Assembly (NCBI RefSeq): GCF_900109295.1
Contig: NZ_FOIZ01000002.1
Coordinates: 248,001-312,000 of the forward strand
Source of the DNA: Cognatiyoonia koreensis
GTDB lineage: Bacteria > Pseudomonadota > Alphaproteobacteria > Rhodobacterales > Rhodobacteraceae
Direction of reading: 5' to 3'
Length of the DNA stretch: 64,000 nucleotides
The notes beneath the pieces were generated by a model, which worked only from the letters and a program-made list of their open reading frames with translations, was not told the DNA's origin and did no database searches. Each line of letters starts with the position of its first letter. Position 1 is the first letter of the stretch. Below, one piece after another: positions 15,449 to 42,100 of this stretch. A program made the position numbers and the translations under genes.

Positions 15449-16723
15449 ATGACACTTACACTTCGGATCGAAAATTTTGACAGCTTGCCTGACGGTGGGC
15501 CGCTTTCGGTGACGTCGGATGGAAATGACCTGCAAGTGGGGCGATCTGCCTCTATGGACTGGTCGCTGCCTGATCCACAGCGTCACATTTCTGGTCATCA
15601 TTTCGATGTGAGCTTTCGCAACGGAAAATACTTCCTGACGGATGTCTCGACAAACGGTGTCTTCCTGGAAGGGCAGCGTCACCGAATAGAGGGTGCACAT
15701 GAACTGAAATCAGGTGAGCGGTTTCAGGTCGGCCATTATTTCATCACCGTCAGTCTGGGTGACGCAGCCGTCGCAGCCGCCGCGCCACCCCCGCAACAGG
15801 TTGAACCGCCGCAGCCGACACCGCCCGTCGTCGACGATAACAGCGACCCCTGGGCTATCGGAGGATCGCCTGCAGCGCCGATTGATCCGAACCCTCGGTC
15901 TGACCGGTCAGGTTTTGACGACTTCGCCAGTGACTTTATTAGCACGCCAACCGCACCGCAGCCTCAAGCCGCCCCAGCGACCGCTGCGCCGCAACCAGCC
16001 GCGGCACCCTCTCCCTTCGGCGGTTCAGGCTCGCCCTTTGACGGCGCGCCTGCGCCGGGGGCAGGTCCGGTATTGTCGCGAACACCGCCGACGGCACCTA
16101 CCGCGTTGCCAATTGCAACACCTCCACAAACGCCGGCACAGCCTGCAGGCGGTGACGCAGTGCTTAAGGCGTTCTGTGAAGGCGCAGGCCTCAGGATGCC
16201 GGCCGGTGCCACGACCGACCCCGAAGCATTTGCGCGTGAACTTGGCCGCACGTTGCGCGGTGCCAGCACTGAAGTCATGGCAATGTTGCAAGATCGCGCC
16301 GCAGCCAAGAAGTTCACAAAAGGGGGCGACCGTACCATGATGGGCGCTGCCCAGAACAACCCGCTGAAATTCCTGCCCGACGTGGATCAAGCGCTCGAAG
16401 TGATGTTCCTGCACCCCCGAGATGGCTTTATGTCCGGCGGTGATGGCCTGACTGACGCGCTGGCTGATGTACGCCAACATCAGGTGGCCGTGTTCGCTGC
16501 GATCCAGCCCGCCCTGATTAAGCTCATGTCGAAACTTGCACCCGAAGACATCGAAGAAGCGCTGGATGGCGGGCTTCTGTCTGGCGGCAAGCGTAAGGCA
16601 TGGGACGAATTCGTGCGTCGGTGGGACAAAATGACGACAAGCCATGAAAATGGAATGCTTGACGTATTCCTGTCGCATTTTGCTGAAAGTTACTCAAAAG
16701 CGACGAAAGGCAGCGGGCTCTAG
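15449..16723 (+). CDS. tagH: T6SS FHA-domain protein TagH
   Basis: A 424-residue cytoplasmic scaffold. The N-terminal FHA domain (about 1-105) shows VGRSASMDWSL, RHISGHHFDV and STNGVFLEG, the phosphothreonine-binding loops. A Pro/Ala-rich linker (about 110-230) leads to the C-terminal TagH domain (NPLKFLPD, FAESYSKA). In the threonine phosphorylation pathway, Fha binds proteins phosphorylated by PpkA and promotes T6SS assembly. PpkA, PppA and TagF are all encoded in this locus. The segment GGDRTMMGA resembles the phosphosite-like motifs of TssL. Confidence 0.92.
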   Translation: MTLTLRIENFDSLPDGGPLSVTSDGNDLQVGRSASMDWSLPDPQRHISGHHFDVSFRNGKYFLTDVSTNGVFLEGQRHRIEGAHELKSGERFQVGHYFITVSLGDAAVAAAAPPPQQVEPPQPTPPVVDDNSDPWAIGGSPAAPIDPNPRSDRSGFDDFASDFISTPTAPQPQAAPATAAPQPAAAPSPFGGSGSPFDGAPAPGAGPVLSRTPPTAPTALPIATPPQTPAQPAGGDAVLKAFCEGAGLRMPAGATTDPEAFARELGRTLRGASTEVMAMLQDRAAAKKFTKGGDRTMMGAAQNNPLKFLPDVDQALEVMFLHPRDGFMSGGDGLTDALADVRQHQVAVFAAIQPALIKLMSKLAPEDIEEALDGGLLSGGKRKAWDEFVRRWDKMTTSHENGMLDVFLSHFAESYSKATKGSGL

Positions 16724-27441: not shown

Positions 27442-29823
27442 CTAACCCAACTCTGCCAGAATTTCATCTACAGAGGCAATGAAACTACGCACTGTCGCCG
27501 TCATTGGCGGCGGGCGCGGTGCACTCGGTGCCCCCCCCGGTACGAAACCCGCTCCGCGCATTTTGCGCTGCGCCCACGCTTCGAGGTCCGAAATCCTATA
27601 GTTGCGTAGGAACGGGTTGGCGTTCACGACGTTCGCGCCCATCACGCTCAGCACAGTGGCATTGTCATCTGCGGACAGTGCTGTGCTGGCACCCGCCGGT
27701 CCAAGGAAGTGCGCAAGATACAATCGACCAGCATCGACATGATGGCCACGGGCCCGCAGGAAATTCTCATTTTCGCGGGCCAGATTCATGACCATCTGTC
27801 GCGACAAGGTCGGATCAGTGCGCAACGCCAGCAGATCGGTCCGGGACATCGTACTATGCAAGTCAGGTCGATAATCGCGCATCATACGCAACCATGTGCT
27901 TTCAATAAACTGACCCAGACCGGTGGCCGTGGAAAGCGGGTTCTTCGCGTTGGCATTGCCGGCACTTTCAACCTGGATAATCTGGTTGGTCAAAGCCTCG
28001 ACCGCGGCTGATGCCGTCAGACCGCCACCAGATGCGATCGTGACGACACCACCGTGACCGAGCAAGAACGGATCAATCGGTTCGCCATTTCTGCGAATTT
28101 CAAAGTGCAGATGCGGCCCAGTCGAACGCCCCGTCGTACCGACATATCCGATCACTTCGCCCGCGCGTACTGGTTTGCCGACTCGAGCCGCGTCAGCGAA
28201 TTTGCTCATATGGGCATAACGCGACTGAAGTCCGTTGGCATGGTTGATGTAGATGACATTACCATAACCGCCGCCATCCCCGATCACGGCGTATTTTCCA
28301 TCAAGCGCCGCGACGATCGGCGTGCCCGTGGGTGCGGCCCAGTCAACACCCGCATGCAAACGCACCTGCCGCAAGATCGGATGGTGGCGCGGACCAAATG
28401 GTGATGAGAGCGTGCCCGCAACAGGCGTCGTAAAGCCGCCACCGGTGCTTGCCGAATGCCCCTGAGGGCCAGTGGCCGAATAACAGCCGTAGTCAATGAT
28501 ATCGCCGACCTGTTCGGTACGTGGCGCGACATAGCACGGCATATTGCCCGACGGTCCCTTGATGCCCGTAAACACAATCTGAGACGGCCCAGCCTTTGCA
28601 TCTGGCGCATAAATGATTGTGACCTTATCGCCGGGCGCGGCAACAGCTTCGAGATCATAGGCCTGCGAAAGCATGACGATCATCTCGCCCACCAGCGTTG
28701 TCGGTATATCGTTGCGAATTGCAGCGCTATAGACGGCATCCAGCAGACGGAAATCCTGCGATTGGACGGCGTCCGGTACACTGGCAGATGCAAGTCGCGG
28801 CAGATCTGCTTCGATCCACGGATCGGAGGATACGGAAAACTGCGATACCCCGCTTTTTGCGACGCTTCCAACGTAGGCGTCAGGACCGTAGACCGAGATC
28901 TGCAAAAGCTCGCGCCGCGCTTCGGGGCCACGAAAACGCGCAGCAACGATGGTACGCGCCTTCAGCTTGTCCTCGGTCTGGATATCCGCAAGGGCTGGCA
29001 TGGCTTTGGCAATCCTCGCGGGTAACGTTTCATCCGGAAGACCGTTCGATGCGAGTACATCCGCAAGAGTGCGATCAGTCTCTAGGCGGACAACGACGTC
29101 TTCATAAATTGTCGTTCGGCTGGCTTCACTGCGGATAAGTGCGACAGAGGTGTTATTTTCGACCTTCGTTTCACGATATGTGGTGATCCCACCGTCGCTA
29201 TCCGCGCCCAGCGCTTCGCCAAGGGAATTATCCATGTCGTCAACAACAACGGTGTTGAGATCGGCGTCGGCATCGACATCTGTCAGGCGAGGTGTGGAGG
29301 GTACCGCTTCTATCGCTGCCGTGCGCTGTGCCTGAAAAAATGCGAAATCTTCGCGGCTTGATGGCAGCGCCGTAATTAATTGGCTTTCTTGGACAACCAG
29401 ATCTTCACGCAGAATGGCAAGACGCGTGCTTGTCGGCGGGCCGAACCGCGCCGGATCAAGGTTCGCGGGTCCGGTGATCTTCTGGACTTCGTCCGTTTCC
29501 TTTGACGCAAAGCGGAGGATCATTGGATCACCCGGAATATCGACGAACGGCGTGGCAAGTCGCACCGCAGGCACGTCCTGCCCGGTCTCCACCTGAACGA
29601 TCTGCTCATCCGCGCTTTCAACAGGGACAAGATCATTATCTGTCGAGAGGGTCGCGATGTCTTCGCCGCTGTTTCGGCCGTCCGGCCGCAGAAAAATCAC
29701 ACCCACAATGAATAGCAAGACAAGACATCCACCCGCAGCAGCGGCGATCTGCACGACCATGCGCTTTTGCTTGCGCTTTCTCGCGCGGTCTCTTGCGGCT
29801 TTGAATTGGGGATCAACCTGCAT
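27442..29823 (-). CDS. Membrane-anchored LytM (M23) endopeptidase and lytic transglycosylase fusion
   Basis: 793 residues. A short basic cytoplasmic N-terminus and one transmembrane helix (about 22-45) lead to a long periplasmic part. Residues 462-590 form a LytM domain with the zinc set intact: H490 and D494 (HAGVD), H538 (YAHM), and H571 and H573 (HLHFE). Residues about 610-720 form an SLT-like transglycosylase domain with E619 (VESAGN) and ATGLGQF (633-639). One protein could thus cut both peptide and glycan bonds of peptidoglycan. It is encoded within the T6SS locus, 8 bp after the caspase-like gene. A role in opening the wall for T6SS assembly is inferred by analogy with TagX and MltE. 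Confidence 0.85.
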   Translation of the reverse strand: MQVDPQFKAARDRARKRKQKRMVVQIAAAAGGCLVLLFIVGVIFLRPDGRNSGEDIATLSTDNDLVPVESADEQIVQVETGQDVPAVRLATPFVDIPGDPMILRFASKETDEVQKITGPANLDPARFGPPTSTRLAILREDLVVQESQLITALPSSREDFAFFQAQRTAAIEAVPSTPRLTDVDADADLNTVVVDDMDNSLGEALGADSDGGITTYRETKVENNTSVALIRSEASRTTIYEDVVVRLETDRTLADVLASNGLPDETLPARIAKAMPALADIQTEDKLKARTIVAARFRGPEARRELLQISVYGPDAYVGSVAKSGVSQFSVSSDPWIEADLPRLASASVPDAVQSQDFRLLDAVYSAAIRNDIPTTLVGEMIVMLSQAYDLEAVAAPGDKVTIIYAPDAKAGPSQIVFTGIKGPSGNMPCYVAPRTEQVGDIIDYGCYSATGPQGHSASTGGGFTTPVAGTLSSPFGPRHHPILRQVRLHAGVDWAAPTGTPIVAALDGKYAVIGDGGGYGNVIYINHANGLQSRYAHMSKFADAARVGKPVRAGEVIGYVGTTGRSTGPHLHFEIRRNGEPIDPFLLGHGGVVTIASGGGLTASAAVEALTNQIIQVESAGNANAKNPLSTATGLGQFIESTWLRMMRDYRPDLHSTMSRTDLLALRTDPTLSRQMVMNLARENENFLRARGHHVDAGRLYLAHFLGPAGASTALSADDNATVLSVMGANVVNANPFLRNYRISDLEAWAQRKMRGAGFVPGGAPSAPRPPPMTATVRSFIASVDEILAELG

Positions 29824-29831
29824 TGCAGGGC

Positions 29832-31385
29832 TTACCGGAAGACGCCTGTCGCGGTGCTACGGTTGATCGTACGCGACGGCGCGGGTGCAGCAGGTGCGGG
29901 CGCTGCTGGTGCTGGCGCTGACTGACGGCGCGGTGCTGCGGTTGTCGTCGTCGTGCGGCGCGGGGCTGCCGTCGAGTTTGTCTGACGCGGTGCCGGGGCA
30001 GCCACGACAACTGGCGGACAGACGATATCATCGCGCTGGAGAATTTGGCGGAAAGCAACAATCGTCGGCTCGAGGTTCGGCGGGGTTTCGTCGATTTCGT
30101 CATAATATCGACCCAACGCGCTGGACGATCCACCACCCCAACTACCGTCAATTCCGGCCGTATAACATTCCATACGTGCCAGCTCGGTTTGCAACGCGAT
30201 TACAAGCTCGGATGGTTGCGGATCGAAAGCCCCCGTTTCGATCAGACTTGCGAACAACGTCGGATCTTCGTCACGCATCGCGCGGCGCGCTTCGATATTT
30301 GTAAAGTCCAACTCCGAACCGGACAACGCCCCGCCGTCTTCTGTCACTGTGCCAAACGCGGCCTCAGTCGCGATTAGCCCCACGATGATGGATGGCGTCG
30401 GCAACCCGCCTACACCTGGGACGGCGCGATTTTCCACGCTGCGAACCGGATCGGCTGCAATCAGGGACACACCGTCCTGAACCTGTGTTGCATTGCTTGA
30501 AACTCGCGGAGCTACGACAGCCGCTGCCGCACGCACTGGCTGAACCGGGGCGGAAATGACGATTGTATCCTGCACCACCATCTGCGGAGAGGCCGCTAAT
30601 GCATTACCACCATCCCGATCGACCGCGATCCCAGCCTGCGTCCAAAGGGCGATCATCTGTGCTTGCGCATCGGGCGATAGCGTATCAAGCATCGCATAAT
30701 GTTCGGCCGTCAGCCGCATTTCGCTGGACGGTCTACGAAAGACGACCGTTTCAGCAAGTGTCGTACGAGTCCAAAGTGGTGCTGCATCTGGATCATCTTG
30801 CGCAAATGCCAGATCAAGAGCGAGTCCCGGAACGTCAAGCGCCCGAATGACATGGGATGCGATCGGCTCGACTGCAGTCGTGCAGGGCTCACCAGGCGAA
30901 ATAGAGGCCGCGAGGTAAGTTGAAGGCGGAATGCTGTCCGGCATTTCCCATGCGGCAGGCAGTGCCGATTCCGGATCACCCAATGCCGGAGAAGCCGTAC
31001 GGCAAAGGTCGAGAAAAACAAAACTTTTGCTGCCAGAGGCCGCTTCAAATCTCGTTTCCAGTTCAACGACAGTGCCGCCTGTGCTCGCGTAATAGACCAC
31101 AAGAGGTGCATCGACCGCGCGAGAAAGCGCAGAACTTACGACATCCGCAGGCGGGTTTTCAAGACGGCGCACATTATACCCCAGGCCAAACAGAGCTTCC
31201 GAAACGGCAAGTGCGTCTTCACGAACATCACGGGTCGCCCGCGCCGTCAGATCATCGAACGCACTGATAACCAATGCCTCTTTACGCTCGGCAGTCTGGG
31301 CCGCAGCGAAGCCGGGCCAGTAAAGCGAGGCAAAAGCTGCCATGGCAGCCGTCAATATGAGCGGCAAGAAATTCATTATGGTCAT
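29832..31385 (-). CDS. Exported caspase-fold protein lacking the catalytic His, with peptidoglycan-binding-like segment
   Basis: 517 residues with a signal peptide (about 1-29). A C14-type caspase fold follows: ALVISAFDD, DALAVSEALFGLGYNVRRLEN and FVFLDLCR, with C128 at the catalytic Cys position. The catalytic His motif (SGHG) is replaced by ASTGG at about 100-104, so protease activity is doubtful. Near the C-terminus IALQTELARMECYTAGIDGS then WGGGSSSAL (about 396-424) resembles a PG_binding_1 repeat. The tail is Ala/Pro/Thr-rich and ends GVFR. It lies between the DUF1036 gene and the LytM/SLT gene, so a structural or regulatory periplasmic role at the cell wall is inferred. Confidence 0.7.
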   Translation of the reverse strand: MTIMNFLPLILTAAMAAFASLYWPGFAAAQTAERKEALVISAFDDLTARATRDVREDALAVSEALFGLGYNVRRLENPPADVVSSALSRAVDAPLVVYYASTGGTVVELETRFEAASGSKSFVFLDLCRTASPALGDPESALPAAWEMPDSIPPSTYLAASISPGEPCTTAVEPIASHVIRALDVPGLALDLAFAQDDPDAAPLWTRTTLAETVVFRRPSSEMRLTAEHYAMLDTLSPDAQAQMIALWTQAGIAVDRDGGNALAASPQMVVQDTIVISAPVQPVRAAAAVVAPRVSSNATQVQDGVSLIAADPVRSVENRAVPGVGGLPTPSIIVGLIATEAAFGTVTEDGGALSGSELDFTNIEARRAMRDEDPTLFASLIETGAFDPQPSELVIALQTELARMECYTAGIDGSWGGGSSSALGRYYDEIDETPPNLEPTIVAFRQILQRDDIVCPPVVVAAPAPRQTNSTAAPRRTTTTTAAPRRQSAPAPAAPAPAAPAPSRTINRSTATGVFR

Positions 31386-31430: not shown

Positions 31431-31853
31431 CTACTGCGGTGCCTTCAAAAAGAGCGTCCACCGTTCCGTCTTGAGTGTGTCCACTTCTAGATAACTGGCC
31501 GTCAGGTGCCCGCGCGAAAGACAATTGGTTTCGCCCCGGATTTCAAATCTTGACGTTGCGATGCACATAGGCGTGGCCCCTTGCAAGATCTCCTTTCCGA
31601 AAACGTCTTGTGCAAAGACATAGACATAGCGGGCAGACAACACTTCCTTGATGACGTTTGCGCATTGGTTTGGACCGATTGTCCACCAGCCGCGGGTAAT
31701 GAACGTACCGCCTTCTGATTGTCCAACAGCCACGTTCACGACGTCAAACGTCTGATTACAGACAGCGAATTCTGCGCTGGCCCGTTGCGGACCTAAAAAA
31801 GCCAGCAAGAACAACGACGTGCGAAATAGATTCTGGATACGAAACGCAAACAT
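31431..31853 (-). CDS. DUF1036 family exported protein
   Basis: 140 residues from ATG 31853, with a hydrophobic signal segment ending PQRASA. The mature part shows FAVCNQTFDVVNVAVGQSEG, GWWTIGPNQCANV and YVYVFAQD, the conserved core of DUF1036, a small periplasmic or membrane-associated family of unknown function in alphaproteobacteria. Four conserved Cys suggest disulfides. An in-frame start at 31925 would add 24 residues ahead of the signal. It is the first leftward gene of the envelope module. Confidence 0.75.
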   Translation of the reverse strand: MFAFRIQNLFRTSLFLLAFLGPQRASAEFAVCNQTFDVVNVAVGQSEGGTFITRGWWTIGPNQCANVIKEVLSARYVYVFAQDVFGKEILQGATPMCIATSRFEIRGETNCLSRGHLTASYLEVDTLKTERWTLFLKAPQ

Positions 31854-31975
31854 GGGGCATTTTTGACGATAGATGATGGAAAACGCACCCCTTCTTGGTA
31901 GAAATTGCTGACTTATTTCAGCCACAAATGGTAATATCAGGCTACTTAATGGATTGAATAATTGGGGCTGGCAGG
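31854..31975. promoter_or_regulatory. Divergent promoter region of the envelope module
   Basis: This 122-bp gap separates the leftward set (DUF1036, caspase-like, LytM/SLT) from the rightward set (two exported proteins, ExbB, ExbD, ExbD, TonB-like). It must hold both promoters. It is AT-richer than its flanks, but I see no convincing -35/-10 pair or operator. Confidence 0.4.
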
Positions 31976-32410
31976 ATGAACACGCAAATTCAGTTTGTAC
32001 TTCAACGACTTGGTCTTATTGTGTTGACCGCGCTTCCGATGCAGGTCGCAGGTGAAGACCTGTCAGGATTTGGACAACCTTCTTTGGTTCTGTCCGATCA
32101 GTCGGGCCTTCCATTCTATCCGACGGACACGCACGTTTTTACCCCGAACGCCACAGACGCAAGCGTGATGTCGTTCGGACGCATTATGACAGTGACAGCA
32201 GACACAACCACCGCCGCACCGGTCCATTCATTGTCGCAATCCCGAAGCAAACCGGAAGCTGCAGTTGCGCTGCGGGCAACTGTGCTGCGCCGGTCCGAGC
32301 TTCTGGTGCAGCAACGTGCGCCGCTGCGCGCTCGCGCAGTTCAGTCTGTTCCGCGGGCCGTCCCTTCTTCCGATATCGGTGATAGCTGGTCGGTTGGTGT
32401 TTTCCGCTAA
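31976..32410 (+). CDS. 144-residue exported protein, unrecognised, ending GVFR
   Basis: An N-terminal signal peptide (LGLIVLTALPMQVAG) is followed by about 117 residues with no recognised domain. The second half is rich in Arg and Val (LRATVLRRSELLVQQRAPLR). It ends SWSVGVFR, and the neighbouring caspase-like protein ends TATGVFR. It is the first gene of the rightward envelope operon. The reading frame is supported by position, signal peptide and codon-periodic composition; function is unknown. Confidence 0.6.
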   Translation: MNTQIQFVLQRLGLIVLTALPMQVAGEDLSGFGQPSLVLSDQSGLPFYPTDTHVFTPNATDASVMSFGRIMTVTADTTTAAPVHSLSQSRSKPEAAVALRATVLRRSELLVQQRAPLRARAVQSVPRAVPSSDIGDSWSVGVFR

Positions 32411-32511
32411 GCGCACAGGTTGACACACTGCCGGCGTTTCTGCCCAATGCCCCTTGCAGGGTGCGGCTTCGTGCTGCAACCTCAGATGCGGGGCACGGGA
32501 AGGAAAGACCG

Positions 32512-32958
32512 ATGATGAACGTATCACGAATGACAGGTTTTGCAGCCGCATTGGCAATGTCGATGGCGGGCGTGACCACGGCAAGTGCGCAAGACGCAGC
32601 AGCCGAATTTTCACTTGAATTGAACAACGCAGCTGAAACGTCTGCCGGCGATTGCCGCCTGACTTTTGTTGCGTCCAATGGGTTAGGGCAGGATCTCGGC
32701 GATATCGCCTATGAAGTTGCCGTCTTCGACGGCTCCGGTATCGTTTCACGGATTCTCGTGCTTGAACTCGGGTCGCTGACCGAAGGAAAGACCAAAGTCC
32801 TGCAATTCGATCTGGCAGGCCAACCCTGCAGCAACACTTCCCGGATCATCGTGAACGCGGTCGCGGCATGCACGCTGGCAGATGGCACAGTCGCGGGCGA
32901 CCTCTGCCTTTCGGGCCTTGCCGCTGGGTCACGCGGTGCTATTCAGTTCGGCATCTAA
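32512..32958 (+). CDS. 148-residue exported protein with four cysteines, unrecognised
   Basis: ATG 32512 or 32515, with GGAAGGAAAGA just upstream. The signal peptide is GFAAALAMSMAGVTTASAQD. The mature part is a beta-rich, disulfide-capable domain: CRLTFVASNGLG, YEVAVFD, LVLELGSL, QFDLAGQPC, and the final Cys pair in AACTLADG and DLCLSGL. It looks like a small periplasmic Ig-like domain. It lies 26 bp before exbB, so it is probably part of the same energised module. The family is not recognised. Confidence 0.7.
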   Translation: MMNVSRMTGFAAALAMSMAGVTTASAQDAAAEFSLELNNAAETSAGDCRLTFVASNGLGQDLGDIAYEVAVFDGSGIVSRILVLELGSLTEGKTKVLQFDLAGQPCSNTSRIIVNAVAACTLADGTVAGDLCLSGLAAGSRGAIQFGI

Positions 32959-32984: not shown

Positions 32985-33629
32985 ATGAATGCCCCCGATC
33001 TCTCTGCGCTGAATACGCCGACCTTGGCTGTATTTGCAGCACTCGCGATTATGTCGGCGATGGCAATCACCGTTGCCTTTCTGAAGATATTTCAATTCAC
33101 ACGTCTGGGTGTCGGGAAAACCAAGAAAGCTGACGCAGTGCTTGATCAATGGTTAAACCACCAGACCAGCGAAGCCATGCAGACAACAGTTCAGGGCAAG
33201 TCTGTGCTGATGCGCGTTCTTCATTCCGTGTTTTCAGCAATTCAGGCCCGCCCCGACGAGCCGAGTTTTGCAGAAGAACTTGGACGTCAGACCGCATTGG
33301 TCGAGATTGGCGCGATGACGCGGCGACTGCGCGTTCTCGACATGGTTATTCAGGCCGCCCCGATGCTTGGCCTCTTGGGAACGGTGATCGGTATGATCGA
33401 CGCTTTCAGCACGCTGGCTGCGTCCGACGGGGTCGTGGATCAGGCGCTTCTCGCGGGTGGCATCTGGACAGCGTTGACGACGACGGCAGCGGGCCTCGCA
33501 ATTGCGTTGGTCACTTACTTCGTTGCAACATGGCTCGAAGGGCGGGTCGAAAGCGAACGGCAGTCTATCGAAGCTGCGATGTCGGCTGCAATTCACGGTC
33601 GGATCGATACGCAAGCCAAGCAGGGCTAG
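32985..33629 (+). CDS. MotA/TolQ/ExbB-type proton channel protein
   Basis: A 214-residue inner membrane protein with three predicted transmembrane helices (about 13-33, 118-140 and 160-185). The conserved TolQ/ExbB core is visible: VIQAAPMLGLLGTVIGMIDAF and GGIWTALTTTAAGLAIAL, which line the proton path. Its family harnesses the proton motive force with ExbD-type partners. It is followed by two exbD-like genes and a TonB-like gene with gaps of 6, 1 and -4 bases, forming a complete energiser. Its location inside a T6SS locus is unusual. Confidence 0.9.
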   Translation: MNAPDLSALNTPTLAVFAALAIMSAMAITVAFLKIFQFTRLGVGKTKKADAVLDQWLNHQTSEAMQTTVQGKSVLMRVLHSVFSAIQARPDEPSFAEELGRQTALVEIGAMTRRLRVLDMVIQAAPMLGLLGTVIGMIDAFSTLAASDGVVDQALLAGGIWTALTTTAAGLAIALVTYFVATWLEGRVESERQSIEAAMSAAIHGRIDTQAKQG

Positions 33630-33635
33630 GCCATC

Positions 33636-34097
33636 ATGGCGCAATCGGACACACTTATCCTGCCGCGTCCCGCGGCCAAGGGTCATCGGTTTTCGCTGAC
33701 GCCTCTTGCGGATGCAATGTTCCAGCTACTTATCTTTTTCATGCTGTCATCAAGTCTTGCGCCCTACTCGCTACTCACTATCCGTAGCGGCCCCGAGCGC
33801 CAGCAAGCGGGTGAAATTGTACCTGGCGACGAAGCTGCCCCGGATGATACCGAAGTGCAGGCGCTTGGCGCGAACACGGTGCTTTGGACGCTGGAGCCTG
33901 AAAAAGTTACCATCGGCGGACAGACCTTTCCTTATGATGCGCTTTCAGCCATCGCCGAAGGGTTGGCACTGAACGACGATGCCGAAGTTATTATCATTTT
34001 GCGCAACCAAGCGCGGGTCCAAGACCTTGCGAGGGTACTCGAAGCTCTGACGGCGGCGGGTATTTCGGCCGTCCAGATCATTCAGGGACCAACCTGA
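33636..34097 (+). CDS. ExbD/TolR-like protein with the conserved Asp
   Basis: A 153-residue single-pass protein. The N-terminal transmembrane helix SLTPLADAMFQLLIFFML aligns with E. coli ExbD around its essential Asp25, and the Asp (D26, in LADAM) is retained. The periplasmic part has the ExbD/TolR pattern (VTIGGQTF, LNDDAEVIII, VLEALTAAGISAVQI). It is probably the functional proton-carrying partner of the ExbB-like protein encoded just upstream. Confidence 0.88.
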   Translation: MAQSDTLILPRPAAKGHRFSLTPLADAMFQLLIFFMLSSSLAPYSLLTIRSGPERQQAGEIVPGDEAAPDDTEVQALGANTVLWTLEPEKVTIGGQTFPYDALSAIAEGLALNDDAEVIIILRNQARVQDLARVLEALTAAGISAVQIIQGPT

Positions 34098-34098
34098 T

Positions 34099-34503
34099 AT
34101 GCGCACGTTGCCCCGTCCCCATCAGCCGGTTCAATTGGACACTTCGCTCGCGATCGTAAACATCGTCTTGTTGCTGATCCTGTTCTTTCTGGCAACGGGA
34201 CAATTGCTGAACCCACCGAAACAAGATGTGGATCTGGCGGAAACGTCAGAACTGCCCCTTGACGAATTGCCTTCACCAATCCTGATCATTACCGCAGACG
34301 GGTCGTGGGAACTTGACGGCGCACGCGTCGCGCCAGACTTGCTTGGGACAGCAGTCAACAACTTGCCCGAACCTGTCATCTTGCACGTCATGGTCAACCG
34401 CGAGGCACCAGCGTCCGCACTGATGGAAGTACTTGCGCAACCCGAATTGGCCGAAACAGAAATGCGGCTTGTGACTGTCAGACGCGTGGTCAGTGGCGAA
34501 TGA
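34099..34503 (+). CDS. Second ExbD-like protein, Asp replaced by Asn
   Basis: A 134-residue ExbD-like protein with a transmembrane helix (SLAIVNIVLLLILFFLA) and a short periplasmic domain. Without gaps, VNIVLLLILFFLATGQL aligns with the ExbD helix IDVMLVLLIIFMVAAPL, which puts Asn at the position of the proton-carrying Asp. It is therefore probably not a proton carrier itself, and may pair with the Asp-bearing ExbD as a heterodimer around one ExbB pentamer. It overlaps the TonB-like gene by 4 bp. Confidence 0.8.
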   Translation: MRTLPRPHQPVQLDTSLAIVNIVLLLILFFLATGQLLNPPKQDVDLAETSELPLDELPSPILIITADGSWELDGARVAPDLLGTAVNNLPEPVILHVMVNREAPASALMEVLAQPELAETEMRLVTVRRVVSGE

Positions 34504-35675
34504 TCCGTCGTATTCATCAATCCGGGGTTCTTGACTGGGGCGAAGCCGTCGGTGCGTCAGCCGTCGTGCATATTGCTGCTGCTGCTTTCATCTTCGATCT
34601 CTGGGGTGATCTCAGCCTGCGCCTGCCCGACCCTGAAGAAGCACCCCCCATTACCGTCACAAGCATCGTGCTGGGCAGCGATACAATAACAACAGCGACG
34701 AACCAGGGCGATGGCACAACTCCGCAATCTAATGACAATACCACCGAAACGCTGGCGAGCGCAGAACCTGAATCGCTTGAACCTGTGTCGCCCGGTAACG
34801 GCGACGAACCGGATGGATCAGAACCGGTCAGCGCCGAACCCATTGAACCGGTCGGGCCGGATGATGGCGCAGGCGCGGTCGAGCCCAGCATTCTGCGGCC
34901 TGCAGAAACAGGGATCAGCGTCGGCGGGGCCACTGTCGTCGGCGAAGGCACAGTCGCAGTTCAACCGGAACGCGTCGGGGCAATTGAACGTTTGCCCGTG
35001 ATAGACACGACGTCAAGCGCTGCTGCACCGGCTAACGACGGTAACGGCGGCGTCGAAGCTTCCGGCGAAATCAATGAGCTTATCAGGCGTATTCGCGCCC
35101 AGCTTGACGATCCCTGCCTGCTGGCAATCCCGCAACAAGGCGGATCAGGCACGCCGGAACTATTGATGCTGGGAAACACCGATACACAGATGCGGGCCTT
35201 CGCTGATACCGTCCTCACGGGCCTGACGCCCCGGCCCGCGGAACGCAGTATTCTGGTCGATGCCCGCCAATGTGCCGCGCTCAACTACGTTCGGCAAAGC
35301 GAAGCATATCCGGCCTTCCGCCTGACTCTCAGTCTTGATTCACAAATCATTGAAAGTGGTGAGAATCTGACCGGAACCATTGGCAACGTGGGCGGGCGGT
35401 ACGTGACGCTTATTCTGGTGGACGATAACGGTGTCGTGCAGGAACTTGGGGAGTATCTGACGTTCCGTGGCGGATTTGCACAATTCGATGTGCCGCTGAA
35501 CCGCGCCGGTCTTGTCCGTGACACAAGTCAGGTCTTGATGGCTTTTGCCAGCGCTGCGCGCCCTGCGACCGTCGATGCTGAAAACGGCCAACTTGCAGAA
35601 ACCTATTTTGCCTCGCTTCGGTCCGAACTGGGCACAGAAACACCGATGGTCATGGTGCCCTTCAACGTCCGTTAG
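34500..35675 (+). CDS. TonB-like transducer with a C-terminal domain shared with PpkA
   Basis: 391 residues. The N-terminal transmembrane helix (about 15-34) carries S20-x3-H24 (SAVVH), the TonB signature contacting ExbB/ExbD. An acidic Glu/Pro/Ser-rich periplasmic linker (about 45-130) follows, as TonB proteins have Pro-rich ones. The C-terminal domain (about 195-391) is not TonB_C: C206 and C258 are 52 residues apart, then FRLTLSLDSQIIESGENLTG and YVTLILVDDNGVVQELGEYL follow. The PpkA periplasmic domain matches it in order and in Cys spacing. It is convergent with ppkA, with stop codons overlapping by 3 bp. Confidence 0.8.
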   Translation: MIRRIHQSGVLDWGEAVGASAVVHIAAAAFIFDLWGDLSLRLPDPEEAPPITVTSIVLGSDTITTATNQGDGTTPQSNDNTTETLASAEPESLEPVSPGNGDEPDGSEPVSAEPIEPVGPDDGAGAVEPSILRPAETGISVGGATVVGEGTVAVQPERVGAIERLPVIDTTSSAAAPANDGNGGVEASGEINELIRRIRAQLDDPCLLAIPQQGGSGTPELLMLGNTDTQMRAFADTVLTGLTPRPAERSILVDARQCAALNYVRQSEAYPAFRLTLSLDSQIIESGENLTGTIGNVGGRYVTLILVDDNGVVQELGEYLTFRGGFAQFDVPLNRAGLVRDTSQVLMAFASAARPATVDAENGQLAETYFASLRSELGTETPMVMVPFNVR

Positions 35676-37681
35676 GGCGACAGCGAAAATACACCGATAC
35701 TCGCGCCTGCGTTCGATCCCCCGCGCCCGGCAATTTCGGCTTCGATCAATGGCAAAAGTGACGCAGCAGTCGTGCCGTCTGTTGCTGCGGCTGCCGCTAT
35801 CAAGGGGCTTTCACTCGCAATTGCAATCAAAAGCTGGGGCGTCGGCTCTGACCCTGCTTCAGCCTGCAATGCAAAACTGAAAGTCGCGCTACCGTCAGCT
35901 CCTTCGCTAAGACGGTCGGTCAGATTGTACACCCCGCCAGCGGCAGAAATGAGCGCCAGCCATGTCGTGCGCCCGCGCCGATCGCTCAACCGGCCCACAA
36001 TCGCGCCACCGCTGATCATTTCTGTATTGTCGAGTGTGAGAACTGGCGCAGGTCCGCCACGCGCACGCAAACTATCGGCCAGCGCCAAGGCCGGGCATTG
36101 TTCAGCTGTAATTTCCTGTGACTGTACAGTCGGGCGGGCACCAAAAGCCTCATCGTATCGATCCGCCAATCCGTCAAAGTCTGCTACGCTTTGCGACAAC
36201 GCACTGATGACGCCGCTGTTGGGTCCAGAAGCGATGCGTGTCACGTAGACACAGGGCTCTTCAGACCACGCCGCAAGGAATCCCTCGCGCGTCGATGTAT
36301 CCGGGCCTGAGACAGTTTCAGTAGGCTCGGTGGCCCCCGTGGGTGTTGCCGGCGGTGTCGTGGCATCCGCTCCGGCGAACATGCCGGTTGACCAGCCGTA
36401 GTAACTGCCACCTCCGACCAGAACGGCCAAAAGCGCGATCACCAGCCCAACTCTGCTTTTTGGTTCAGGATGCGGTTGCGAGGTGGGTGCGATGGTTTGC
36501 GGCGCAATGGTTGCAGGTGCCTGGGTGGTGCCAAATGGGCTGGCAGATGCACTGGTGCCCGTGACTTCAAGTGAACCCGAAAGCGTAGTTGCAGGTGCAC
36601 TGCGGCCAGGCGGCTGTCGCAAACCCGGAACAAGGGTCGCAGGCTGCAACGTTGCTGTCGTCTGTCCGGCAGGTGGTGGGGCCACGGTGGTCTGTGAAAC
36701 CGGCACATCCAAAAGGGCGACGACATCGGACATGCGCGCCGGGCGATCTGCAGGATCAGGCTGCAGCATTTTGGTCAGAATAAACTGCAGTTCGGGATCA
36801 ATACCGCTTAGATCAGGGACCGACTGGCGGGCATTCACAGCCTCGACAACGGATGTGCCCATGTCCAAAGGCTTGCCACGGGCCGCGGCAGCGATCAACA
36901 GGCCAAGGCCATAGATATCGGTACGCGGCCCGACCTCTCCGCCAAAATGCCCCAACTGTTCCGGCGAAATATACTTGAATTTCCCGGCAAGCTGGCCGTG
37001 CAAAGTGCTTTCTACATTGGTCTGGCTTTTCGCGATCCCGAAATCGATAAGAACGGCATCATCGATGGCACCACCGCGCAGGATCACGTTATCAGGGGAG
37101 AGATCGCGGTGAACGACTTCCATGCTGTGCGCACGGTCGAGACCTTTGGCGAGACGGCGGATCAGACCCTTACAGGCTTCGACGGAAAGCCCGCCCTTCT
37201 CTTGCATCTCTTCCGACAAAGAAACGCCGTCAATGAACTCCATGATCAGGCAAAAACGATCCAGATTGGTGTCTTTGACAAAGTTGTAATAGCGAACAAT
37301 GGCTTGGTCAGAGAGCTGACACAGCACCTTCGCCTCGCGCATGAACAAGGCCGCGACTTTTTCGTCGTTGGCAAGCGAGTTCAAAACGATCTTGATTGCG
37401 ACGGCATCGCCGGTAAATGCGTTCTCACCACGGAACACTTCGCCCATGCCACCGGCGCTGATCAGTTCCTTGATTTCGTAGTTGTTGTTAATCATCGTGC
37501 CCGGCGGAATTGGCACGGATTTTTCCTGCGATGGCGGCGGCGTCACATCAGGACGTGGTGCGGCGGGAACTTCCTCGGTGTCCTTGGGCAAAATGATCGT
37601 CTCGGGCTGCGCATCGGCCTCACGGGGCGCGATACGGGTGCGATCGTCTTCGGTGGGGTCCTTGTCTTCTCCCTCCGCCAT
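35672..37681 (-). CDS. ppkA: T6SS serine/threonine protein kinase PpkA
   Basis: A 669-residue transmembrane Hanks-type kinase. The kinase domain (about 68-325) is complete: Gly-loop SAGGMGEVF, K97 in VAIKIV, HRDLSPDN with D193, DFG 213-215 and SPEQ. A Pro/Thr-rich juxtamembrane segment, a transmembrane helix (412-430) and a periplasmic domain (about 465-669) with C477 and C529 follow. In T6SS, PpkA phosphorylates targets that FHA proteins bind. The periplasmic domain matches that of the TonB-like protein. The N-terminal DDRTRI resembles the phosphosite motifs of TssL. It is the last gene of the leftward operon. Confidence 0.93.
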   Translation of the reverse strand: MAEGEDKDPTEDDRTRIAPREADAQPETIILPKDTEEVPAAPRPDVTPPPSQEKSVPIPPGTMINNNYEIKELISAGGMGEVFRGENAFTGDAVAIKIVLNSLANDEKVAALFMREAKVLCQLSDQAIVRYYNFVKDTNLDRFCLIMEFIDGVSLSEEMQEKGGLSVEACKGLIRRLAKGLDRAHSMEVVHRDLSPDNVILRGGAIDDAVLIDFGIAKSQTNVESTLHGQLAGKFKYISPEQLGHFGGEVGPRTDIYGLGLLIAAAARGKPLDMGTSVVEAVNARQSVPDLSGIDPELQFILTKMLQPDPADRPARMSDVVALLDVPVSQTTVAPPPAGQTTATLQPATLVPGLRQPPGRSAPATTLSGSLEVTGTSASASPFGTTQAPATIAPQTIAPTSQPHPEPKSRVGLVIALLAVLVGGGSYYGWSTGMFAGADATTPPATPTGATEPTETVSGPDTSTREGFLAAWSEEPCVYVTRIASGPNSGVISALSQSVADFDGLADRYDEAFGARPTVQSQEITAEQCPALALADSLRARGGPAPVLTLDNTEMISGGAIVGRLSDRRGRTTWLALISAAGGVYNLTDRLSEGADGSATFSFALQAEAGSEPTPQLLIAIASESPLIAAAAATDGTTAASLLPLIEAEIAGRGGSNAGASIGVFSLSP

Positions 37682-38445
37682 CAGGGCACCTCGACCGCAT
37701 GTACGTCTTCACCGGCAAAGTGCACGACAACCGCCGTGACATTATCCTTGGCTCCGCGGTCCAACGTCATCTGTATCAAGGTTTCGCAAGCTGCATCCAT
37801 CGACGCAGCAGTGCTTAGGGTCTGGCGAATGTCATCATCCGAATTATGCTCGGTCAGCCCGTCCGAACACAAAAGAAAGACGTCTCCGGGTTGCAACTGG
37901 CCGGCAACGATATCGCACTGCGGTTTCGCGGAAACGCCGATCGCGCGGGTAATCACGTTGCGACGGGGCCATGAAACGGCCTCCTCCGGGGACATCAGGC
38001 CAGCATCCAAAAGGTCGTTTACCTCGGTATGGTCTTTGGTCTGCTGGACCAGCATGCCGTCACGCAAAAGATAGATGCGGCTATCACCAGACCAAATGCA
38101 CAGGTACTGGTCCTCATGGGCCAGAAGCCCAACAAGCGTGGCGCCCACGGTGCCACCACCCAGCGTCTGAGCATGTTCAACGATGCGAGTGTGAGCGCGG
38201 GACAGACGCTCCATAAATCTGGCCTGCAGATCCTCGGCAGAGATGGGAACACCGACAGAGGCGAGTTCCTCGGTGATGGTCTGGCTGGCATAGTCGCCCG
38301 CGTCATGACCGCCCATACCATCGGCAACGACCCATACACCGGATTCCGGACGGGTCAGAAAGCTGTCTTCGTTATGATCCCGCACGCGACCGGTATTGGT
38401 CTGACCGGCCGTCGCGATTGTGAAATAATCCGTTTGCACAGTCAT
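37681..38445 (-). CDS. pppA: T6SS PP2C-type protein phosphatase PppA
   Basis: A 254-residue PPM/PP2C phosphatase that reverses PpkA phosphorylation. Metal-binding Asp motifs are visible: RDHNEDSF, VVADGMGGHDAGDYAS, GDSRIYLLRDG, LCSDGLTEH and DNVTAVVV. It overlaps the ppkA start (TGATG-type junction) and follows tagF by 5 bp, giving the standard tagF-pppA-ppkA post-translational control set. Confidence 0.95.
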   Translation of the reverse strand: MTVQTDYFTIATAGQTNTGRVRDHNEDSFLTRPESGVWVVADGMGGHDAGDYASQTITEELASVGVPISAEDLQARFMERLSRAHTRIVEHAQTLGGGTVGATLVGLLAHEDQYLCIWSGDSRIYLLRDGMLVQQTKDHTEVNDLLDAGLMSPEEAVSWPRRNVITRAIGVSAKPQCDIVAGQLQPGDVFLLCSDGLTEHNSDDDIRQTLSTAASMDAACETLIQMTLDRGAKDNVTAVVVHFAGEDVHAVEVP

Positions 38446-38450
38446 CGGGG

Positions 38451-39179
38451 TTAGGCTTCCTTGTCTTCCGACGCCACAGTGAGGGGATACCCCATCAACC
38501 AGGCGATCACTTCCACATCAGGCCACCCCTGACAGACGTACACAGCAGAGCTTGTCGCATCCGCGCGCCAGACATATGACCGCCCGCGAATGGCATGGTC
38601 GCGGTCCGCGATGGCCGCATCCTGCCACAGCCGGGCGATATCGCCATCACTGCGTGCAGCCCAGAATCCATTTGTTCGGAGTTGAGTCTCTGCAGCATCA
38701 CTAAAATCGCTCACGGCGCTGGCAACGTGTGAACCAAGTTCCTTTGCGTCGCTTCCATCAGTGCGCACATAGCCATCCAGCGCCTGTTCCAGCGCCTCAA
38801 ACACGGATTGTGACTGGTCCTGCACTGGCGCGTGGACGGCACTACCTTCCAAGGCAGCGACCAAGGGAAAGCGTCGCCCGACCCTGTCGCGCGACGTGCG
38901 AACAACACCCAGAAATCCATGCCCCCCCGGTGTCAGATCGGGGCCGAACCAGAACCGCAGGCTTTGAGCCGTGTCAAAATTGCTTTCCCAAGCCTCTGCC
39001 CAGCCGATTTTGAGACTTGGCATGACGTGACCGAACCATTGTTCGAGCAATTCCACCAAAGGCGCTGAAATACCTGTTGAAACAAAATCGCCAAATTCCG
39101 GATGCTTTCCGAAGACACCAACGGATACTTGCGCTGTGTCCTGAACCTGATGTTCCATGGTGTCTGCGGCCACATTCAT
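38451..39179 (-). CDS. tagF: T6SS-associated protein TagF (DUF2094)
   Basis: A 242-residue TagF. The diagnostic N-terminus VGVFGKHPEFGDFVSTGIS and LLEQWFGHVMPSLK are present, as is WFGPDLTPGGHGFLGVVRTS. TagF represses T6SS post-translationally in Pseudomonas and Agrobacterium, in the latter together with PppA and Fha. ATG 39179 lies just after the tssM stop; ATG 39158 is an alternative. It is not fused to PppA here, unlike in Agrobacterium. Confidence 0.92.
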   Translation of the reverse strand: MNVAADTMEHQVQDTAQVSVGVFGKHPEFGDFVSTGISAPLVELLEQWFGHVMPSLKIGWAEAWESNFDTAQSLRFWFGPDLTPGGHGFLGVVRTSRDRVGRRFPLVAALEGSAVHAPVQDQSQSVFEALEQALDGYVRTDGSDAKELGSHVASAVSDFSDAAETQLRTNGFWAARSDGDIARLWQDAAIADRDHAIRGRSYVWRADATSSAVYVCQGWPDVEVIAWLMGYPLTVASEDKEA

Positions 39180-39183
39180 CGGA

Positions 39184-42100
39184 TCAATCCAAACTTTGCG
39201 GGCATTCAAACTCTGCCAGTTCCGGCATTGTGAAGGGGTTCGTCACCGCATCATACCCGATATCATAGGTGATAGAGCGCCCGCCTAGAACATACATGCG
39301 GCGGCTGACGTTACCAGATGCCCGCTGCGGATCACCGCTGCGGATGAACCGCGCCAGTGACCAGACGTTACCGCTATAGCCTTCTGCATCGGTGCGCCCG
39401 CTTGGCGGGGAAACCTGTAGCATGACCTGCCCGCTGTCATTGGGCCAGCTAATCGGAGTTGGCGGATCATTTGGCAAGGTTGGGATCGGCTTGCTGCCAA
39501 TAGTCAAAAGCGCTTGGCGGATCGACGAATGCGAAGACTGGTGCGTCAGGGACAAATCGACACGCGGACTGGTGCCGCCAGCGGCAAAGAACGCCTCGCG
39601 GATACGCAGCGCCCGTTCGAATTGGCGGAGCGCATTCGGAGATATCCTGTCTGCCAGAGAGCTTGATTCATCAATTGCCAACCCATCAGCCGTACGAATG
39701 ACGTGTCGCGCCAGATAGGTGGAGTAGAACGTATCCATGTCGCCACCGGGGCCGAAGAAATTGCCGAAGGCCGCAATGGACACTTCGCGATCGGTGTCGC
39801 GGAATGGGTAGTAAGCGGTGATGTTCTCGCGGCATGAGAACGTAATGTCATTTGCGAGAGCGCGGTTCATCTCGGCTAGCGTCGCGTCAGTCGCCTCTTC
39901 CTGAAAGTCATTATAGGCGTCGTCGATCATCTCCTGGATCTTCGCAGGATAGCGTGAGGTCTGGCCGATCAACGCACTCAACGCCTGCGGCATGAACTGT
40001 GCGGCCTGCTCGGGATTGGTTTCCGCAAGAGTGAGATATCCAAGGATTTCACCCAGCTTGTCCTGCAAAGCGTCCATCGCCGTGGCATCCATCGGACCGT
40101 CGAGCACTTCATACCATTTTTCAAACTGTGCCTCGATACGTTCCAGCGGGGCCGTCATGCCGCCACTTGACCCGTTCACACGAACCTGATCCTTGGCCTG
40201 ATTGGCCATCGCATCAAGCAACATGCGCTGCACGCCGGATGAGCGACTGCGGAAGCGCGATGCGATGGCACCGCCAACATCGGTTGCGACGCCTTCAGCA
40301 CCACCTTCACCACCACCGCCACCCAAAAGTGAAGAAGCATCCAAACCGTCCAATTCTTCCAGTTCGCGCGTCAAGCGTGTTTCGGCTTTCACCGCCTCGG
40401 CCAGACGCAACAAGGGCGAATTATCGCCGGCAGCAGCACCCAGTGCATCATAGCGCGGCTTATCGGCAGACAAGTTCGCGAGTTTGACGCTTGCAAACAT
40501 TTCATCCCACGCAGCGACGAAATCTCGGGTATAGCGCGAATGAAGTGCCTGATCCAAACCAGCCAGCTGCGCATCGAAATCAACGTCTGACGCTTGCTCA
40601 CCCAAAACCCATTTGTCTTCGACCAAACGGTCTCGCACGACATCCAATTGGTCAAAGAAAAAGCCCCAATAACCTTCGTAGGTATAAAGGGCAGGCACGC
40701 CGATCTCGGTCAGGTCACGTTCATCCGTCGTGATAAAGACCTTCACACTTTCAGATCCGGTGCGTTCAACGAGGTTGAAATCACTCATTCCTGAAGCCTT
40801 CGCCTTGTCGGAAATCAGGGCATAGGCCTGATCGGCAACGGACATGCGAACGATCGCGTCACGCGCGGTTTCGACCGCATTTTCGTCGATGGTGACGGAA
40901 ATCTCGCGCGTGTCATCGAGGTTTAACATCGCTTCAAGATGCCGACCAAGCTGTTCACGCTTTGTCAGCCCCTCGCGTCCCGTAAAGGTTTCGCGCCAAG
41001 TGTCATCGAACCAAGCAATGACAGCTTCGTTGTCTTCACGCTCGCCCTGACCGCCCAGCAGCATATACACTTTGAGCGCACGGTAGATTTCGGCCGGCTC
41101 GCCAGTGTTTCGGATTTCCTGCAGACGCCGTTCGACGTCTAGAAGCAGACGAGGCCGCAACATCTGTTCTAAAGCATCCGAATAAGCATTCGTAGTCGAC
41201 GCCTGCACGCGGTCGCGCTGGCTCAGGCCGAACCCCTCCCAGATCGTCGCCTCTGCTGTCGTACCATACCCGGCAGGCATGGTGCGCAGACGTTCAAGAT
41301 GGGGAAGGATGGGATCAAGATCGCGGTCTTCGATCTCGGTGCGCAGGATTTCCGTGTTGGCCTGGCGCGCATAGGTCTCGCCTTCGGTGCGGGCGGTATT
41401 CACCAGATCGCGGTTCAGCCAATAACTAAAGCCCAAGGCCGCCAGCACTCCAGCAGTTGTTATTCCAATAACAGACAATCCCAGACCACGCATGATCGCC
41501 TGACGGCGCACAGCACGCACATCATGGCTGACCCAGTCACGTTCTTCGAAAATGACACGCTTCAGCAGGTCATGAATGAAAAAGCTCTTGCCCTGCCCTG
41601 ACATGAAAGACGGCGCAAAGGCACCGGCGGCACCTTCGTTGCGAGCCATCGCACCCAGCACCTGATCAATTGGTGTGCCTTCTTGCGTCCCTGACGTGAA
41701 ATAGAACCCACGCAAAATGGCGTTGGACTTATAGCGGGTTGGCTCAAATACGCGACGCAGGAAATCGCTGACATTGTCGCGCAGCAATGCCATTTGACCC
41801 GGCAGTCCGAAAATCGCGACACGGCTGATGCCGTCTGGTTCTTCGCTCAGGCGGTCAATCACTTCGTCGGACAAACGGGACACAAGCTTGTCGAATTCGG
41901 TTGGCACACTTTCGTGCGTCTGCTCCTTGCGATCCTTGGTCTGGAAGGTCACGCCCCAGACGTTCTTGCGGCGGTTGATGTTGAAGCTCGAAAAGTATTC
42001 GCGGAATCCTGAAATCAGATCTGCTTTGGTGAACAGGACATAAACAGGGAAATCCACGCGCAGCGCCTCGTGGACTTCGGCAAGGCGGGCACGCACCGTT

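Follow-up and report, generated by a model that had tools for sequence, protein, structure and literature searches.

Why should a locus for type VI secretion (T6SS) encode a TonB-like motor, and what could such a motor be for beside the T6SS kinase PpkA? The question is raised by a 64,000-nucleotide stretch of Cognatiyoonia koreensis DNA (NCBI RefSeq assembly GCF_900109295.1, contig NZ_FOIZ01000002.1, positions 248,001 to 312,000), referred to here as the window and numbered from its first letter. In it the gene for a TonB-like protein of 391 amino acids (aa) (34500..35675, plus strand) converges on that for the 669-aa Ser/Thr kinase PpkA (35672..37681, minus strand; Pfam Pkinase, 2.7e-37, aa 68-315), and the stops of the two genes overlap by 4 bases (35672-35675), as a first-pass annotation made from the letters alone had reported. 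PpkA has a transmembrane segment (TM), recognised by eye, and a periplasmic domain (P; aa 456-669, 35675..36316, minus strand). This domain and the C-terminal head of the TonB-like protein (T; aa 186-391, 35055..35672, plus strand) are homologous along their full length.

The same annotation had drawn attention to a pair of cysteines in each domain, and this observation was confirmed in both proteins. C206 and C258, the only two Cys of the TonB-like protein, lie 52 residues apart with a Gln preceding C258, and C477 and C529 in the periplasmic part of PpkA have the same spacing of 52, with Gln directly before C529. Local alignment of T186-391 with P456-669 (BLOSUM62, gaps 11/1) gave a score of 104, which none of 2000 shuffled versions of P attained (mean 34.1, s.d. 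5.7). Profile-profile alignment by hhalign returned a probability of 99.7 (E 2.2e-25, 204 columns) with 19 T and 20 P sequences, and 99.6 (E 9.5e-25, 196 columns) with 73 T and 55 P sequences. Together the shuffles and profile alignments rule out a chance spacing of cysteines. The segments that the first reading had set against each other are those that align, and its claim of a shared periplasmic domain proves to have been understated, the similarity running for about 200 residues and reaching both C-termini. Among relatives, both Cys are kept in all 77 T domains of sufficient length (one further domain, cut short, was excluded from the count) and in 54/54 P domains; a spacing of 52 is seen in 50 of these T domains and, among the 49 P domains with Gln before the second Cys, in 46; five P domains have His or Met there instead. 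Of 78 usable T domains, 72 make up set A3, from which five near-copies judged by eye (L062, L064, L095, L097 and L125; L and G numbers are our handles for loci and genomes) and the short L077 were omitted; L132 was excluded as too short, and L049 was excluded from sets A1 and A2.

AlphaFold models of the two domains are both confident (T: pLDDT 92.8, pTM 0.88; P: pLDDT 95.4, pTM 0.91) and the predicted main elements come in matching order, an alpha/beta part bearing both Cys followed by an Ig-like sandwich. Searches of solved structures with T and P gave matches confined to the Ig-like part, and the only Pfam match of the window's own T and P was at chance level (DUF6284, E 0.22). At E 10 no Pfam family was matched by more than 4 of the 55 P or 4 of the 73 T members, the widest matches being RhlB for P (4/55) and Lactamase_B_5 (best 0.0056) and TusA for T (4/73). 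A named domain was sought in Pfam, NCBIfam and the sequences of solved structures with no credible candidate emerging, and a BON-like N-terminal part was considered, BON not being among the Pfam matches of T and P members. Profile searches detect a T or P domain in 25 of the 295 genomes sampled from the window's family and, at class level, in 2 of 385, counts that derive from the best candidates per genome (6 and 10 for the family, 8 for the class), so that absence is not proof. Both of the class-level matches come from the window's family, and a wider spread was rejected on that ground. Relatives with TonB-like loci are labelled Rhodobacteraceae, Rhodobacterales, or by genera that we take to be Rhodobacteraceae. 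In one genome (G004) a murein endopeptidase (Peptidase_M74, 2.4e-95; L049 7932-9992) carries a domain of the T/P type as a C-terminal fusion, and the PpkA of that genome carries a divergent copy of the domain behind He_PIG domains.

The operon that encodes T also encodes an ExbB/TolQ-like motor subunit (32985..33629, plus strand; PF01618, 4e-25) and two ExbD proteins, ExbD1 (33636..34097, plus strand; PF02472, 1.6e-12), with the membrane Asp D26, and ExbD2 (34099..34503, plus strand; PF02472, 3.1e-7), without it. T133, T166 and T167 of ExbB and D26 of ExbD1, which we take to be the proton-path residues, are each kept in 78/78 relatives, so that an ExbB/ExbD motor is identified both by Pfam and by conservation. 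ExbD2 has another residue at the position of the membrane Asp (N21 in 76/78 relatives), and the sequences suggest that ExbD1 and ExbD2 form a mixed pair. The TonB-like protein itself begins with a TM bearing Ser-xxx-His, the motif of the TonB N-terminal TM, as S20 and H24 (kept in 58 and 77 of 78 relatives, respectively), and continues with a Pro/acid-rich linker and the head T. No Pfam or NCBIfam family matched it at E 0.1, the usual heads TonB_C and TonB_2 included (Pfam, E 0.1), and neither of these is among the families matched by the 73 T heads at E 10.

Since the window's genome holds two other MotA/ExbB-family genes, the motor on the T6SS side is an additional one. The window also encodes peri165 (32461..32958, plus strand, start uncertain), which matches no Pfam family, is apparently exported as judged by eye, and has relatives in siderophore-type TonB operons. 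Genomes G149 and G232 have a second operon with the same gene order, peri165-ExbB-ExbD-ExbD-TonB (L232 8159-11857 and L233 7690-10562; the G149 operon, L232, contains a second peri165 copy). Both adjoin a TonB-dependent receptor, a siderophore-interacting protein is also present in G232, and the TonB of each has a canonical head matching TonB_C and TonB_2. Because the order is the same and the head there is canonical, the head is the differing part. The simplest reading is that a siderophore-type motor exchanged the head of its TonB, the PpkA sensor domain probably taking the place of the usual one.

Association of the motor with PpkA was followed in 79 TonB-like loci, each limited to 10-kb flanks or by contig ends. 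ExbB, ExbD1 and ExbD2 are each present in 78 of them, peri165 in 74, a caspase-like gene in 68, a DUF1036 gene in 59, PpkA in 56 and an M23 peptidase in 52. In 52 loci the PpkA and T genes converge; no more than 120 bases separate them in 47 of these, and in 12 they overlap by 4 bases. In two more loci (L120, L134) a domain-bearing PpkA lies elsewhere in the locus. Whole-genome searches for the remaining 25 loci found a P-type match for 23, the kinase part of which was not confirmed one by one; the two without are the metagenome-assembled genomes (MAGs) G316 and G317. Kinase frames of L106 and L112 show no domain match within the cut loci, and their genomes do carry the domain. Overall, a P-type domain is present in the genome for 77 of the 79 loci, the other two being incomplete MAGs. 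In the sample of 295 family genomes, T was found in 19, P in 23 (22 typical and the divergent G004) and both in 17; T without P occurs in the MAGs G166 and G147 (71 and 73% complete), whose T contigs are those of L069 and L089. TssF is present in 19/19 T genomes and 22/23 P genomes, compared with 72/295 overall. T thus accompanies P and the T6SS, an association that is secure and one-way, P not needing T. Some loci have no tss genes nearby, which suggested that the cassette might also serve without a T6SS; this was rejected after TssC was found in 14 of 16 genomes with unusual contexts. TssC was not matched in G309 (L112) or in G704 (L104), the latter locus having TssM and TssL.

We infer that motor and kinase likely belong to one pathway, and likewise infer that the motor acts on the kinase and that the two may touch. 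With a little more confidence than doubt, we read the motor as an extra input to PpkA, the T head engaging P directly or via a shared envelope partner. A dedicated proton-driven motor, consisting of ExbB, ExbD1, ExbD2 and the TonB-like protein with its PpkA-type sensor head, would use the proton motive force (pmf) to bring T to bear on P in one of these two ways; engagement would bias PpkA dimerisation and the phosphorylation of Fha or TssL, and this phosphorylation would in turn license T6SS assembly. Co-variation of T with P is weakly suggestive of such a common function. The T-P distance correlation of 0.83 is the highest among the pairs compared, with 0.79 for P and the kinase domain of its own chain (49 loci); after removal of TssM, PppA and ExbB the partial correlation is 0.54 for T-P versus 0.28 for P and the kinase domain (49 loci), and with more controls T-P stands at 0.45, rank 2 of 36 pairs (32 loci). 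These correlations cover those of the 79 loci that have all needed proteins.

Several observations weigh against the motor as an input to PpkA. The T-P value of 0.45 is exceeded by that for DUF1036 and the kinase domain (0.46), T-P led in no more than 75 of 200 subsamples (32 loci), and distance correlations are confounded by shared ancestry and the fast rates of T and P. Being convergent, the two genes are not co-transcribed. Residues also differ: only five alignment columns (Cys, Gln-Cys and two Gly) are conserved to at least 90% in both T and P, and nine that reach this level in T (Y85, P86, D123, V127, Q129, P147, G152, T157 and F185) show no residue that exceeds 65% in P, with Y85, P86, D123, Q129 and T157 conserved in T and not kept in P. 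Since T-conserved residues vary in P, the alignments suggest that T carries a surface of its own and speak against one identical binding site in T and P. Finally, P occurs without a T match among the best few candidates scored per genome in six of the 295 family genomes, three of them 100% complete (G121, G247 and G131) and the others 97% (G004), 86% (G028) and 73% (G273, in the draft of which the PpkA frame is split in two, L220).

PpkA therefore does not need the motor. The first-pass annotation had itself named T6SS loci in which PpkA keeps its domain in the absence of the TonB-like gene as evidence against its proposal, namely that the two domains bind one ligand or each other and that a pmf-driven transducer could gate the kinase, and in this one direction the evidence stands against it. 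Of that pairing, the shared domain, the adjoining motor with conserved proton-path residues and the one-way dependence stand; strict mutual dependence of T and P is rejected, and the motor looks like an optional PpkA input. Over 20 kb, the T6SS locus of G121 has no ExbB, ExbD or TonB-like frame; it keeps the M23, caspase-like, DUF1036 and peri165 genes, and the next gene is glycosidase-like by eye. In a tree of 41 domains with quick support values, T and P each make up one side of a branch (95 and 86), and the motor-less P of G121, G028 and G247 cluster with P of the motor-bearing G026 and G175 (support 99). Loss of the motor in the G121/G028/G247 lineage is probably the simpler reading of this tree, taken without a fixed root.

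A more specific version of the extra input is that T and P both serve as receptors for one C-terminal peptide. A G-V-F-R tail, seen again in relatives, terminates two different proteins of the window that belong to divergent transcription units: an apparently exported caspase-like protein (29832..31385, minus strand; PF00656, E 0.021, under the cut-off; tail at 29835-29846) and a small, apparently exported protein (31976..32410, plus strand) with the tail SWSVGVFR (GVFR codons 32396-32407). Such tails would act like a C-terminal TonB box, T pulling on or removing the tails by which P is otherwise held or activated. Recurrence of the tails favours this. Of 72 caspase-like frames, 50 end in G[VIAL]F[RK]; among 13191 frames 35 others have this ending, and 34 of those sit at a single place, where the small protein lies immediately upstream of peri165. 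A looser pattern, typically [W/Y/F]xxGV[F/Y]R, occurs in 62/78 loci, of which a few are perhaps chance (L085, L114), with a signal-like N-terminus by a crude rule in 61/62; six more loci have variants seen by eye, such as WQTGIFQ and WSTGQYR. Two of the four places in the window's genome that match G-[VI]-F-R-stop, a pattern written with CGN for Arg and TAA or TGA stops, are the tail genes, the backward control giving one. The two tails also change together: in the three loci whose small protein has Gln as its last residue, the tail of the caspase-like protein is likewise without Arg, and among 59 loci with both proteins Arg is present in both tails in 54, in neither in 3 and mixed in 2, although this co-change is probably a single event in related genomes. 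Tail-pattern matches accompany the cassette in six T genomes, and none lies near PpkA in six T-less genomes, genome-wide counts of the pattern being little above the backward control. Tails as strict partners of T were rejected, since tail proteins with other endings persist alongside P in the motor-less G121 and G273 (small-protein tails PWLIGVYN and PWQTGIFQ, caspase-like tails ending GSF), a persistence that in itself speaks for the two-receptor idea. Any common receptor should therefore be motor-independent, and candidates are P, peri165, DUF1036 and T6SS parts; that the receptor could instead be one of the latter three, or M23, counts against the two-receptor idea, as do the differences between T and P at T-conserved positions. 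We regard it as unlikely in this form. A further elaboration, in which the motor with its kinase-derived head sets the T6SS firing threshold, T and P competing for GVFR tails that loss of pmf or of an envelope link would free to PpkA, thereby switching the kinase, is a long shot.

Another special case of the extra-input reading, and one we consider somewhat unlikely, is a T-P heterodimer that arose by copying of a PpkA homodimer in an ancestor, with the motor separating or aligning kinase dimers. Full-domain homology, the closely convergent genes and T-P co-variation speak for it, but P is kept without T. Two further explanations dispense with signalling to the kinase. The motor might energise another envelope task, for example the opening of peptidoglycan for the T6SS together with the M23 peptidase, its head only tethering it to the peptidoglycan or outer-membrane target of PpkA. 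The frequency of M23 among the loci and the fusion of a T/P-type domain to a murein endopeptidase in G004 point this way; however, M23 and DUF1036 were not seen in the 10-kb flanks of many loci with T and PpkA, and the P-type domain accompanies nearly all TonB-like loci, which makes this explanation improbable to about the same degree as the two-receptor idea. Lastly, T and P may share ancestry only, so that a copied domain is all that still connects two proteins now working in separate pathways. Genomes with P and no T agree with this, but the confinement of T without P to two incomplete MAGs and the presence of TssF in every T genome of the family sample argue against it, and we hold it to be quite improbable. 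The motor as an extra input to PpkA, of which the two-receptor and heterodimer ideas are particular forms, is the reading we retain.

The surroundings of PpkA are those of a T6SS threonine phosphorylation pathway, the locus containing PpkA, PppA and Fha. PppA, a PP2C-type phosphatase (37681..38445, minus strand; PF00481, 1.5e-11), and TagF (38451..39209, minus strand; PF09867, 7.2e-22) lie next to PpkA, and Fha (15449..16723, plus strand; PF20232 and PF00498) is the expected PpkA substrate, a role taken from the literature. On the other side are the DUF1036 protein (31431..31925, minus strand; PF06282, 6.1e-33) and the M23 peptidase (27442..29823, minus strand; PF01551, 2.5e-33), which has a weak SLT match and an N-terminal TM by eye. 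The caspase-like protein of the window has Thr at the catalytic His position and so lacks the His-Cys pair of an active caspase (Peptidase_C14). In alignments that took in only frames longer than 380 aa, this His is kept in 16/51 relatives and the catalytic Cys in 50/50 aligned, one relative being without it in a second alignment; both catalytic residues are present in the proteins of G121 and G273. Its C-terminal region is peptidoglycan-binding-like by eye, with two Cys in 51/51. Beside the T6SS, window positions 45762-51080 encode a large protein, autotransporter-like by eye, without a Pfam match, and frames resembling it adjoin PppA-PpkA-TonB-like cassettes remote from other tss genes in L043, L045, L119, L130 and L133. 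A second TssC-like match was seen in 11 of 16 genomes searched, inside open frames of 707-1655 aa (L214-L218 and further places) and, where the contig is shared, about 12-15 kb from the normal TssC.

Inputs to PpkA vary by lineage, PMC6082577 describing TagQRST, a complex restricted to Pseudomonas, and RtkS of Serratia, which binds the PpkA periplasmic domain; according to the same paper, the signal of PpkA outside Pseudomonas is an open question. In Acidovorax, the outer-membrane protein TssW interacts with PpkA (PMC12607579). Like the motor proposed here, TagQRST, RtkS and TssW act or are proposed to act on the PpkA periplasmic domain, but the passages cited (PMC6082577, PMC12607579) present none of the three as a motor powered by protons or as a carrier of PpkA's own domain. 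Two further papers report that the H1-T6SS of Pseudomonas is triggered by outer-membrane damage (PMC11881912) and that in Agrobacterium secretion is activated by Fha binding to the phosphothreonine of TssL (PMC3953482). In the open-access literature searched, no title or abstract start names a pairing of PpkA with a TonB motor; 'type VI secretion', PpkA, ExbD and TonB occur together, as a match of terms, in two genome or proteome papers (PMC7326052, PMC5664417).

What is new is a TonB motor that bears a T6SS kinase's sensor domain as its head, and this suggests an undescribed route of T6SS control in one bacterial family. If the reading is true, an antibacterial weapon would be tied to the pmf or to envelope integrity, and TonB heads would be exchangeable parts by which a motor can be wired to signalling, with the two tail-bearing proteins a concrete candidate for the part that carries the signal.

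The closest known system is the TonB-ExbB-ExbD complex, which the window's motor resembles in its ExbB and ExbD subunits, its TonB TM with SxxxH and its periplasmic linker; it differs in having no TonB_C or TonB_2 head, in sharing its head with PpkA and in one ExbD that lacks the membrane Asp, and no TonB-dependent receptor was found among the window genes scanned. The siderophore-type operons of L232 and L233 are alike in peri165 and in an identical gene order. Motors of this class are also employed outside nutrient uptake, as in Zorya, whose ZorAB is a MotAB/ExbBD-like motor; it serves a defence system, has a cytoplasmic tail and bears no TonB head. In FecA-TonB-FecR transenvelope signalling a TonB motor likewise participates in signalling to an inner-membrane protein, the receptor there signalling to an anti-sigma factor, whereas the partner here would be a Ser/Thr kinase.

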